A DNA stretch of 64,000 nucleotides from a virus. Positions 46,882 to 56,402 of this stretch are shown here, piece after piece. The notes under the pieces are model-generated. The model searched no databases. It had not been told where the DNA came from and saw only the letters and a program-made list of their open reading frames with translations. How positions within the stretch are numbered: the stretch's first letter is position 1; the number at the start of each line of letters is the position of its first letter. The stretch is from positions 30,542 to 94,541 of the IMG/VR virus record IMGVR_UViG_3300032308_001681; one strand, 5' to 3'. The position numbers and the translations under genes were made by a program.

Positions 46882-46890
46882 TGTCAAAAT
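46882..46890 (+). promoter_or_regulatory. Leaderless extended -10 promoter (46,897 gene)
   Basis: TGT-CAAAAT with TG at -15/-14 and the hexamer at -12 to -7 of the ATG. The box AAAACGCCCC lies at 46,864-46,873, 8 bases upstream. Confidence 0.65.
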
Positions 46891-46896
46891 GGTTAT

Positions 46897-47415
46897 ATGG
46901 CTAAGGCAATCTTTGAGCGGCTCGAGCATCCCGAGGGGCAAGACCTCGGCAATGGTCGGCGCATGGTCGAAGGTCCCATGCCAGAGGAAACGCGCAACCA
47001 ACACACCCTCCGCAGTTACGGCACACCCCGACGCGTGAGCTTTTATGACGACAATGCCAAAGAGTCGTTCGCCGGTCCCTACCTCAAAGAAGACGAGGGT
47101 GGCGAAAAGGGTCTCGTCGGCTATGCGGACATCTACCGCGAGCCGGACCTCCCCTCGGCAATATACGGCACCCAGCCCAATGGTCGGAAAATCATCAACT
47201 TTACGCAAAACACCAATGTTGGCTACATGCGTACTGCAGGCAGGTACCAAGGTGGCGGCATAGGTCGTCAGATGTTCAACTATGTCGTGAACACCACTAA
47301 CCCAAAGAGCCACATCGACCTCGGTCGGGTAGTTGACGAACGCATGGGTCACATGTGGGAACAGCATAAAGAACAAGGCGACACCCCTCACATGCACGGC
47401 AAGGTTTGGTACTAG
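46897..47415 (+). CDS. GNAT-fold protein, intact acetyl-CoA motif
   Basis: No ribosome site; the ATG is +1 of a predicted leaderless message, so it is preferred over an in-frame ATG-like codon 18 bases upstream. R-Y-Q-G-G-G-I-G-R-Q-M-F is the Q-x-x-G-x-G acetyl-CoA loop and its helix. H-I-D-L-G-R-V-V follows. 172 residues. It heads a series of GNAT-like genes in which this motif decays. The acetylation target is unknown. Confidence 0.55.
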   Translation: MAKAIFERLEHPEGQDLGNGRRMVEGPMPEETRNQHTLRSYGTPRRVSFYDDNAKESFAGPYLKEDEGGEKGLVGYADIYREPDLPSAIYGTQPNGRKIINFTQNTNVGYMRTAGRYQGGGIGRQMFNYVVNTTNPKSHIDLGRVVDERMGHMWEQHKEQGDTPHMHGKVWY

Positions 47416-47417
47416 AC

Positions 47418-47846
47418 ATGAGCTCTCTTGACTGGACAGAAGTGCCCGACCCTGATGAATACCGGGATGCACGGCGCACGATTGCTTTCCTTGCGTCAAG
47501 CAAGGGCCACGGCTACACGATTCATGACGGTCCCTACAACGACGTAGAAAACGGCACTCACGACGTAGTTATTGACTCTCCAGAAGGAGAGGAAGTCGGC
47601 ACTATGACGCATGACGACTTCGGCCACGTTGGCTACTTCTACATGCACCCAGACCACCACGTTGCCATTCCCAAGCTCTTGACCCACGTAATCGATTGGT
47701 CAGAACAGCACGGGTGGGCACCCCCGCACTCGGGAGGCGCGATGACGCCACAGGCTTACAAGTTTGCAAAGCGAGTGCTGCCCAACAACATTCGGATGAG
47801 TGGTGCTTACGGCGGTGCAGAACCGCACAACCGGTACGAACGCTAA
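47418..47846 (+). CDS. Degenerate GNAT-like protein
   Basis: It begins two bases after the previous stop. G-H-V-G-Y-F-Y-M-H-P-D-H-H-V-A-I-P-K-L-L aligns by eye with the acetyl-CoA strand and helix of the 63,037 protein but has lost the Gly residues. The C-terminal P-H-S-G-G-A-M-T-P-Q-A-Y-K matches the family tail. A GNAT scaffold used for binding rather than catalysis is likely. Confidence 0.5.
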   Translation: MSSLDWTEVPDPDEYRDARRTIAFLASSKGHGYTIHDGPYNDVENGTHDVVIDSPEGEEVGTMTHDDFGHVGYFYMHPDHHVAIPKLLTHVIDWSEQHGWAPPHSGGAMTPQAYKFAKRVLPNNIRMSGAYGGAEPHNRYER

Positions 47847-47868
47847 CCATAAAACGCCCCGGTAGTTC

Positions 47869-47877
47869 TGTCACACT
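47869..47877 (+). promoter_or_regulatory. Leaderless extended -10 promoter (47,884 gene)
   Basis: TGT-CACACT ends 6 bases before the ATG. AAAACGCCCC lies at 47,851-47,860, again 8 bases upstream. Confidence 0.7.
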
Positions 47878-47883
47878 GGATAT

Positions 47884-48330
47884 ATGGCACCTGTACCAAA
47901 AGACCCGATGCGCAAGCTCGAGTTCCTCGCTGCTCGCACCAAGTCGAGTGGCCGGTACAGCTTCTTTCACACCTCGGGCAAAAGGCGCCACATTATCAGC
48001 GTGGTAGACAACACCGACCCTATCGGCGTAGTGCAGCCCATCGGCGGTATGACGTGGCACAAGGAGACGGGTGAAGTCGACAACATCGGTGTGCACCCAG
48101 ACCATAGCCATGTTTTGTCAGCATTGCTGATGGAAGCAAAAACCGTCGCGGAACGCGAAGGGTTTGCTGCGCCTACGCGCGGGTACCTGATGACCAAGGA
48201 CAGCGCACGTCTCGTGCGGAAGATTAACCCAGAGGCCATGAACGACCGTCGTGCCAACGTGACCGACAAGACAACTGACTGGCGTGGCCAAGTAGACAGT
48301 GTAGGCATCCACAGCTACAAGCTGGATTAA
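47884..48330 (+). CDS. Degenerate GNAT-like protein
   Basis: Predicted leaderless start. G-G-M-T-W-H-K-E-T-G-E-V-D-N-I-G-V-H-P-D-H matches the strand pair of GNAT proteins, as in the canonical 63,037 protein, but S-H-V-L-S-A-L-L replaces the R-G-K-G-I-A-T loop. The end has P-T-R-G-Y-L-M-T-K-D-S-A. 148 residues. It is likely non-catalytic. Confidence 0.55.
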   Translation: MAPVPKDPMRKLEFLAARTKSSGRYSFFHTSGKRRHIISVVDNTDPIGVVQPIGGMTWHKETGEVDNIGVHPDHSHVLSALLMEAKTVAEREGFAAPTRGYLMTKDSARLVRKINPEAMNDRRANVTDKTTDWRGQVDSVGIHSYKLD

Positions 48331-48352
48331 CCTAAAAACGCCCCTACTGTTC

Positions 48353-48361
48353 TGGCACACT
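48353..48361 (+). promoter_or_regulatory. Leaderless extended -10 promoter (48,368 gene)
   Basis: TGG-CACACT at the fixed spacing; AAAACGCCCC at 48,335-48,344, 8 bases upstream. Confidence 0.7.
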
Positions 48362-48367
48362 TGATAT

Positions 48368-55050: not shown

Positions 55051-55055
55051 GACTC

Positions 55056-55064
55056 TGTCACACT
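55056..55064 (+). promoter_or_regulatory. Leaderless extended -10 promoter (55,071 mini frame)
   Basis: TGT-CACACT, identical to the 47,884 box, at the fixed distance from a GTG. It drives a frame of only 10 codons. Confidence 0.6.
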
Positions 55065-55070
55065 AGAGGT

Positions 55071-55103
55071 GTGACTGTTTTTGCTTATTTGGACGCTGCC
55101 TAG
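55071..55103 (+). CDS. 10-residue leaderless mini frame, coupled
   Basis: GTG, nine further codons, then TAG, whose G is the first base of the next GTG. The product would be M-T-V-F-A-Y-L-D-A-A. It lets ribosomes that load at the leaderless start re-initiate on the following gene, which lacks its own site. Confidence 0.5.
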   Translation: MTVFAYLDAA

Positions 55104-55267
55104 TGGAGCCTACCGAATCCTTTAATCAAGGAATTCAGGATGCTCTTAGGGCCGCCCAAGAACAAGCAAACAGGGAGGGCCGGTCTATTCGTGTCCCCGG
55201 AGGGTGGGTTAACCCATCTTCGGCGGCTTTAGCCAAGCGTCCTAAGGATAAAAATGAGAAAGCCTGA
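55103..55267 (+). CDS. 54-residue unknown protein
   Basis: The GTG shares one base with the mini-frame stop (TAGTG). No Shine-Dalgarno sequence. N-Q-G-I-Q-D-A-L-R-A-A-Q-E-Q-A is a helix, then R-V-P-G-G-W-V-N-P. The stop overlaps the next start. The gene is too short for most callers. Confidence 0.55.
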   Translation: MEPTESFNQGIQDALRAAQEQANREGRSIRVPGGWVNPSSAALAKRPKDKNEKA

Positions 55268-55517
55268 ATTTGAGAAGGGCTCAAGAGAGCACGCTCTGTG
55301 GCACGGCGATGTGCCCGAGACTGTCCCCAACGACAGCGGTTACGGAAGCAAAATCGAGTACCCGGCACTTCCTTGCTCTGCAGGCCATTGCCCAGCTAAG
55401 TTCTGGGGCGAAAGCAGCCGCAATGCTCACATTGACTTTAGGCACAGCGAATCGCCCTTGCGTCAAAGCCAGAACGATGAGTGGGCTAACGACTACCGCG
55501 GGCCCGGAGAACGGTGA
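55254..55517 (+). CDS. Unknown protein with C2H2-like spacing
   Basis: H-A-L-W-H-G-D-V-P is near the start. C-S-A-G-H-C-P and N-A-H-I-D-F-R-H give a C-x4-C ... H-x4-H arrangement, possibly a zinc finger. 87 residues. It overlaps the preceding gene by 14 bases. Confidence 0.5.
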   Translation: MRKPEFEKGSREHALWHGDVPETVPNDSGYGSKIEYPALPCSAGHCPAKFWGESSRNAHIDFRHSESPLRQSQNDEWANDYRGPGER

Positions 55518-55519
55518 GC

Positions 55520-55549
55520 TTGCATAATGCTTTTGCAGGTTAGTAGGAT
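55520..55549 (+). promoter_or_regulatory. Candidate promoter for the first M23 peptidase
   Basis: TTGCAT and TAGGAT are 18 bases apart. Predicted +1 is about 50 bases before the ATG, which has an AAGGAG site, so this gene has a normal leader, unlike its neighbours. Confidence 0.5.
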
Positions 55550-55604
55550 GGCTGAAGCTTAAACGTAACACCCCACTGCACCCAATCCCCTAAGGAGTAA
55601 GAGC

Positions 55605-56387
55605 ATGCAGTTGAAGAACGATAACAACCCAACTTTCCGAATGCAGGTGTTTTACCTCCGCAATCGGTGGCACTGTTTCATTAAACCCGCAATCCAAAAG
55701 AAGATTGATGCGGTAACCAACGTAGTATCCAGAAAAGTCCAACAGCATATCGCTGTTCCGGCATTGGCTGGCTTCAAGTACGTGAACCAACTACGGGTCA
55801 ACCAAGCGCGGTTTGTAGCAATCATGCTGGCTATTGTCACTTTGGTAGTTGCACCTAACGTGTGCCCCGACTGTAACGCATCAGGCGCTCGTGCAAGTAC
55901 GTGGGGTGACAATACCCAAACGGTTACTGCCAACGATGTGGAAGTTACCCTGTACGACCGTGGTGGCATCTATAAGCCTACGCTTATCTACCCCGTTGGT
56001 CGCGCACCTATCGCCAGCCCCTATGGATGGCGTACTGCCCCCTGCGCTGGCTGCACGAGCGACCATAACGGCACAGACTTTAACGTTCCTGCTGGGACCC
56101 CCGTAAAAGCCGCTATGACCGGAACAGTCATGTTTACGGGTTGGCAGGGGACCTACGGCTACCTCATGATTATTGATGCCGGGTATGGCTACGTAACCTA
56201 CTACTCTCACATGATTGCCGACTCTACTCCAGCAAAATTTACTGTGGGCAGCTCCGTAAACATGGGCGATGTTATCGGACTTGTGGGTTGTACTGGGGCT
56301 TGCACCGGGGCTCATCTGCACTTTGGCTTGCAGTTGGACGGTTCATTCGTTGACCCCATGCCGGTACTTCAGAAGTACGCCCAGTAG
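55605..56387 (+). CDS. Membrane-anchored M23 peptidase
   Basis: A basic region leads to one hydrophobic segment (about 66-84, V-A-I-M-L-A-I-V-T-L-V-V-A) that anchors or exports the protein. The M23 domain has S-P-Y-G-W-R, D-H-N-G-T-D-F and H-L-H-F, giving the zinc ligands H, D and H. It cuts peptidoglycan cross-bridges. This could help DNA entry, lysis, or both. A second M23 enzyme lies at 58,028. Confidence 0.85.
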   Translation: MQLKNDNNPTFRMQVFYLRNRWHCFIKPAIQKKIDAVTNVVSRKVQQHIAVPALAGFKYVNQLRVNQARFVAIMLAIVTLVVAPNVCPDCNASGARASTWGDNTQTVTANDVEVTLYDRGGIYKPTLIYPVGRAPIASPYGWRTAPCAGCTSDHNGTDFNVPAGTPVKAAMTGTVMFTGWQGTYGYLMIIDAGYGYVTYYSHMIADSTPAKFTVGSSVNMGDVIGLVGCTGACTGAHLHFGLQLDGSFVDPMPVLQKYAQ

Positions 56388-56393
56388 TTTATT

Positions 56394-56402
56394 TGTCACA
56401 CT
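56394..56402 (+). promoter_or_regulatory. Leaderless extended -10 promoter (56,409 gene)
   Basis: TGT-CACACT, 6 bases, then GTG. The initiator base is therefore G, showing the layout also serves GTG starts. Confidence 0.65.

Follow-up and report, generated by a model that had tools for sequence, protein, structure and literature searches.

The 64,000-nucleotide stretch analysed here (the window; bases 30,542-94,541 of the 94,541-base IMG/VR virus record IMGVR_UViG_3300032308_001681) carries a block of phage accessory genes in which an extended -10 element recurs at a fixed distance before start codons lacking a Shine-Dalgarno (SD) sequence. Coordinates are those of the window unless marked 'record'. 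The pattern is real, and our results suggest, with a probability of about 0.78, that these genes are transcribed as leaderless messages from extended -10 promoters read by the housekeeping RNA polymerase of the host, with the first transcribed base (+1) on the start codon. This leaderless reading, put forward in an earlier note on the same DNA, is well supported by the position of the element, its specificity for one offset, the absence of SD sequences and its conservation at orthologous genes. In contrast, the proposal in that note that the unusual C at -12 suggests a special sigma factor is not supported, as the same arrangement is enriched in actinobacterial chromosomes and no phage sigma-70 domain was found.

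All ten TG-N-CAMAMT sites of the earlier note are present on the plus strand, with TG at -15/-14, C at -12, A at -11 and T at -7 of an ATG or GTG. They comprise TGTCAAAAT at 46,882-46,890 (ATG 46,897) and 53,767-53,775 (ATG 53,782), TGTCACACT at 47,869-47,877 (ATG 47,884), 55,056-55,064 (GTG 55,071) and 56,394-56,402 (GTG 56,409), TGGCACACT at 48,353-48,361 (ATG 48,368) and 48,775-48,783 (ATG 48,790), TGTCACAAT at 49,735-49,743 (ATG 49,750), TGACACAAT at 51,962-51,970 (ATG 51,977) and TGCCAAAAT at 52,925-52,933 (ATG 52,940). Every site is genuine, although the count of ten genes has to be qualified: the start at 55,071 opens an open reading frame (ORF) of only 10 codons, whose TAG overlaps the GTG (55,103) of a 52-codon ORF. 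The pattern TGNCAMAMT-N6-RTG (R, A or G) matches the window 12 times, against 0.34 expected and a maximum of 2 among 100 shuffles, and the whole record 13 times on the forward and never on the reverse strand; the reversed control pattern gives no match. Two of the 12 window matches (13,624 and 22,333) fall within genes and are chance occurrences. Beyond the window, a real site lies at record 777-785, before a gene for 61 amino acids, and a variant of the element, TGTCATCAT, at record 1377.

The position of the element relative to the start codon carries most of the argument. Among 244 predicted starts of ten family genomes that have no SD sequence and a free upstream gap, TG-N-YANNNT stands at exactly -15 in 25 cases, compared with 0-2 at each other offset from -60 to -9; an equal frequency of the motif away from start codons, one of the two observations that the earlier note had named as speaking against its reading, is thus not what is seen. 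At SD-bearing starts of the same genomes there is no peak, with 2 of 323 at -15. A peak at -15 confined to starts without SD is predicted by a +1 on the start codon and hard to obtain in another way. An SD 4-mer between -19 and -5 is missing from all ten sites, in line with the earlier note, and plus-strand genes of the block lack SD more often (18/25) than genes in the rest of the genome (35/119; Fisher p = 1.5e-4); a few block genes do carry one (e.g. 55,605). All ten sites have TGN directly 5' of the hexamer, as defines an extended -10 promoter, and the alignment of upstream sequences reveals no TTGACA-like -35 hexamer. The last T of the -10-like element lies 7 nt before the start, as in actinobacterial leaderless genes, whereas the T at -12 of their TANNNT form is replaced by C in 10/10 sites.

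The variants listed in the earlier note held up only in part. TAGACT is indeed found before ATG 30,074 (30,062-30,067, plus strand), as a canonical -10 with T at -12 and no TG, and a similar arrangement precedes the homologous gene in several relatives. At 54,181 (TAGGAT) and 63,908 the hexamer lies one base further upstream (-13 to -8). The site before ATG 63,866 is on the minus strand (63,873-63,881) and reads TG-A-TAATGT, with T at -12; it is conserved in the related genome G001.

The record begins and ends with a 123-base direct repeat (window 63,878-64,000), the length of an assembly overlap (123 or 127 bases in five relatives), and therefore probably represents a complete circular genome. 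The phage is of the contractile-tailed type (tail sheath phrog_23, baseplate wedge) and also encodes a terminase, portal, major head protein, DNA polymerase, DnaB-like helicase, UvsX-like recombinase and tyrosine integrase. A WhiB-like transcription factor (34,857-35,162, minus strand; Pfam PF02467, E 2.2e-18), a marker of the host phylum and candidate partner of sigma-A, has homologs in 12/12 family records fetched whole or nearly whole. The major head protein matches hundreds of IMG/VR contigs and five loci in bacterial genomes, of which three belong to actinobacteria with a name (chromosomes of Terracoccus, Nonomuraea and Herbidospora). From WhiB and these chromosomal relatives, the host is very probably an actinobacterium. 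Three queries of phage GenBank records returned neither a DNA nor a protein match.

The C at -12, present in 10/11 TG-bearing sites without SD in this genome, is best considered against host chromosomes. Over 100 Actinomycetota genomes, TG-N-CANANT-N6-ATG occurs 661 times, against 270 for the reversed-pattern control. In a subset of 48 genomes poor in T-type matches, picked after the T counts were seen, the numbers are 241 and 39, compared with 135 and 92 when the motif lies two bases further from the ATG; the clearest single genomes give 26 vs 2, 15 vs 1 and 15 vs 0. Because this subset was post hoc and the effect is absent in low-GC genomes, a gene-by-gene test was added. Of the nine TG-bearing sites at offset -15 in Terracoccus, eight carry C at -12, one carries G and none T, whereas sites without TG carry T in 31 cases and C in 13; the same trade-off appears in genome G067. 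In the phage family, the base at -12 is C21/T10 with TG and C2/T15 without (p = 2.4e-4); the corresponding values are C11/T1 and C12/T56 in G067 and G121 combined (p = 1.3e-6), and C8/T0 and C29/T46 in G034 (p = 1e-3). The simplest reading of this trade-off is that the extended TG substitutes for a contact usually made with T(-12). Since TG-linked C(-12) also occurs in actinobacterial chromosomes, and given this reading, C at -12 can be regarded as ordinary for the host phylum. The available text of Cortes et al. (PMC3898074) reports TGN in 7% of the TANNNT promoters of M. tuberculosis and an absent -35 consensus, and does not discuss C(-12).

Two other explanations of the motif were tried and discarded. 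A virus-wide motif is contradicted by the IMG/VR scan with TCTGTCACACT-N3-9-ATG, in which, among the matches listed, N6 occurs 9 times, N5 30 and N8 38; the element therefore appears bound to this lineage. The WhiA site, GACAC, is not contained in the common form TGTCACACT.

The element is present wherever the orthologous gene has been kept in relatives, and further sites were found in G001, G002, G008, G016, G017, G018 and G136. TTTGTCATCATAG stands a few bases before the ATG of a 78-amino-acid gene (record 1392) in four genomes (G000, G001, G016 and G017), whose proteins are 44-48% identical and whose sequences further upstream are unrelated. Similarly, the gene at 48,368, which resembles the rifampin ADP-ribosyltransferase Arr, shares with its G001 counterpart 21 identical bases through the ATG (TTCTGGCACACTTGATATATG) and nothing upstream. 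A 444-bp block (48,350-48,793, plus strand) that is 92.8% identical to G001 (blastn) starts three bases before the -10 of this Arr-like gene and ends at the next start codon, with different neighbouring genes on the two genomes, as would an exchangeable gene cassette. A second blastn match to G001 stops on the last -10 base of the site at 56,394-56,402, and a third, of 43 bp (47,844-47,886), covers the promoter only, with unrelated genes on either side. The upstream half of the promoter of 48,790 is shared with that of a different G001 gene. Overall, 9/40 homology ends coincide with promoters, against 0.96 expected (p = 0.002), and 6/16 for G001 alone (p = 0.00035); both tests contain some circularity, since the copies of the promoter are similar to one another and yield matches of their own. 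The 444-bp block and the match ending at 56,394-56,402 are better evidence for exchange joints than these counts. Related phages may have swapped genes at shared promoters by recombination.

These observations can be assembled into a mechanism, of which we infer the start site, sigma identity, mode of translation, timing, regulation and recombinational exchange. Each site would be a full minimal promoter, TG-N-(C)ANANT, without a recognisable TTGACA-like -35 box. The actinobacterial RNA polymerase, presumably with its housekeeping sigma, would bind the extended -10, the TG making up for the missing T(-12) as it apparently does in actinobacterial chromosomes, and judging from the hexamer at -12 to -7, +1 would be the first base (A or G) of the start codon. 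The ribosome would then take the 5' ATG or GTG of the leaderless message directly; in mycobacteria, a 5' RTG is necessary and sufficient for leaderless translation (PMC4633059). Second genes of pairs follow the preceding stop after a 2-nt gap or overlap it with their start, mostly without SD, and are probably translated by coupling; the site at 55,071 may drive a leaderless leader of 10 codons, to which the ORF at 55,103 would be coupled. With a control region short enough to fit entirely into the roughly 40 bp that separate a stop from the following start, single genes or gene pairs would form self-contained modules, and the promoters could serve as short shared joints for the exchange of modules between related phages. 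We tentatively propose, at somewhat less than even odds, the fuller picture in which joints of about 40 bp, promoter and start codon together, are read by the host polymerase, tuned by a phage-specific upstream site, give each accessory gene its leaderless message and provide the homology for swapping. The same reserve applies to its companion, an actinobacterial promoter rule with C(-12) where TG is present and T(-12) where it is not, of which we found no description.

Several observations weigh against leaderless transcription by the housekeeping polymerase, or against the chromosomal parallel. The placement of +1 is drawn from the position of sequence elements. Start codons were predicted with our own codon-usage script instead of a standard gene finder, and the site counts are not independent because many sites are paralogous. 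Overall, the C form with an N8 spacer is also more frequent than its control (744 vs 400), and low-GC genomes have the N8 control spacing as often as N6. A clear chromosomal signal is thus limited to high-GC genomes, whereas the phage has a GC content of 52%. G121 alone has too few sites to show the trade-off at -12, and the mid-GC actinobacterial chromosome G102 has no such leaderless class. Finally, the near-exclusive C in the block is not fully explained, since T(-12) would be equally possible in principle.

A subset of the promoters shares a further element upstream. It was recognised at -40 to -24 as TAGCCGTAAAACGCCCC (46,857-46,873, plus strand; the same block occurs in G136, G001, G017, G008, G007 and G018), as TAACCATAAAACGCCCC (47,844-47,860, plus strand; the TAA within it is the stop of the preceding gene) and, in the alignment of upstream sequences, as TAACCTAAAAACGCCCC (48,328-48,344, plus strand); the promoters of 52,940 and 53,782 have TAGCC at -39. 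TAAAACGCCCC (or TAAATCGCCCC) at about -34 to -24 is found in 11 promoters of seven phages, with a spacing to the -10 that is constant within one base, and in several relatives the block lies at the first gene past the divergent gap. TA[AGT]CC occurs at -40 or -39 in 11/24 sites and once elsewhere in 60 bp. The block is missing at 49,750, in the G001 copy of 48,368 and at both G002 sites, and is therefore not essential to the promoter class. It is possibly a regulator site acting on the polymerase, and its conservation could also reflect shared descent of promoter copies; together with the WhiB homolog, it provides candidates for an activator.

A regulator is the centre of the least improbable alternative, in which the leaderless extended -10 promoters need a phage or host protein bound at the TARCC/TAAAACGCCCC block between -40 and -24, possibly acting via sigma region 4 in the manner of WhiB proteins, and in which C(-12) holds basal activity down, the genes of the block then being activated together. 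The concentration of TA[AGT]CC at -40/-39 and the fixed spacing of TAAAACGCCCC are consistent with it, as is G007, where the upstream block precedes a -10 with T at -12, and so is the presence of a WhiB homolog in each family record obtained whole or nearly whole. However, the sites without the block indicate that not all promoters require it, relatives that have few C-type promoters possess WhiB just the same, and the conservation may in part reflect shared descent of promoter copies, so that we consider such a requirement rather unlikely.

A dedicated sigma factor preferring C at -12, phage-encoded or an alternative one of the host, would account for the C in 10/11 TG-bearing sites, and other freshwater actinophages carry a sigma-70 factor plus WhiB (PMC10202952). 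Nevertheless, Sigma70_r2, Sigma70_r4 and sigma70-ECF have no match in the phage genome, 12 family records yield a single sub-threshold match to sigma-70 domains, and the C(-12) class exists in actinobacterial chromosomes alongside T(-12) promoters of the same geometry, all of which makes this explanation improbable. Still further from the evidence is the idea that the repeat is no promoter and instead a translation signal or a DNA site (operator or recombination target) that abuts start codons by chance. The homology ends found at the sites above chance are what a recombination site would give. Yet the bases that do not vary are precisely the ones that define an extended -10, located at the distance expected for +1 on the start, the same element occurs at the same distance in chromosomes, and the -10-to-start distance stays constant where the flanks vary. 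Moreover, there is no stable RNA structure around the four sites examined, whose predicted folding is no more stable than that of shuffled sequence (z -0.41 to 1.43). We regard this explanation as very improbable.

Few of the block genes match known families. The gene at 46,897 has a weak match to GNAT acetyltransferases (PF00583, E 0.0056) and no relatives in IMG/VR, the gene at 48,368 has a weak match to Arr-ms (E 0.0095), and most others have none; these names are leads only. A second Arr-like gene lies at 61,862, in a row of small genes (61,862-63,330; by eye Arr-like and acetyltransferase-like) that, like one at record 792, start with MGRNNxDF or MGANNxDF. The peptide is also found in G001, G005, G016, G017 and G018 and might be a shared targeting or packaging tag. 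A further short peptide recurs in the block: at 51,977, at 49,750 and within 48,231-48,330, FNDRR or MNDRR followed by charged residues stands at the start of the protein or within it (MIEFNDRREDVTRDW, MIQFNDRRSIG, AMNDRRANVTDKTTDWRG).

A GC-rich 1.1-kb stretch without predicted genes (45,754-46,896) lies between the leftward genes with SD sequences and the leaderless block, which runs rightward; in G001 and G002, too, a leaderless-type gene follows a gap, of 1,136 and 1,559 bases. On its left side (36,480-45,850, minus strand), eight genes (starts at 36,482, 38,342, 38,980, 39,286, 39,533, 41,199, 43,910 and 45,753) are preceded by a repeated structure resembling a tRNA acceptor stem and T-arm, GCCTG...CCGGGTGCAAGTCCCGGG-CAGGC (stem variants GCCAG/CTGGC and GCCCTG/CAGGGC), then a second small hairpin, AAAGGA and ATG. 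The repeat is reported neither by ARAGORN nor by Rfam, whose scan of 33.3-58.0 kb gave no match, and three of its regions fold only slightly better than shuffles. Elsewhere in IMG/VR, five loci (L270, L272, L278, L282 and L284; 49-52% GC, up to 101 kb) have TGTCACACT-N6-ATG before a 305-codon frame, with the conserved upstream sequence GGGTATCGCCCACCG, and perhaps represent the same promoter type in another lineage.

Leaderless genes as such are familiar from actinobacteria, but the literature searched contains no phage in which a single repeated leaderless promoter serves a whole accessory block. If correct, our reading would allow true starts and promoters to be predicted simply in this family of very common freshwater phages, offer a testable -12 rule for actinobacterial extended -10 promoters, and provide a concrete mechanism by which a small phage gene and its promoter travel together as one unit.

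Actinobacterial leaderless genes have a TANNNT -10 at -12 to -7 (Zheng 2011, PMC3160421; Cortes 2013, PMC3898074; Shell 2015, PMC4633059). The phage sites share with them the distance of the hexamer to the RTG and the lack of SD and -35 box, and differ in nearly always having TG, in the C at -12 and in being repeated as a module over an accessory block. Mycobacterial extended -10 promoters, given as TGNTANNNT in the available text of PMC3898074, likewise have TG at -15/-14, A at -11 and T at -7, whereas the phage sites have C instead of T at -12 and, in a subset, the block at -40 to -24. In T4-type phages, promoter/stem-loop cassettes are reportedly the places where genes are shuffled (PeSL; Arbiol 2010 and Comeau 2014, as cited in PMC4503421). 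As far as that secondary account describes them, these resemble our case in the repeated promoter between small accessory genes and in the exchange between relatives that may take place at such points here; in contrast, the phage sites differ in sequence, have no stem-loop (four sites), are leaderless and include the start codon. Finally, cluster K mycobacteriophages have start-associated sequences, about half of them with 17-bp inverted repeats (ESAS), whose function was left open (PMC3203893). These are also repeats linked to the start codons of small accessory genes in actinophages, from which the sites described here are distinguished by a -10 element and the lack of an inverted repeat.

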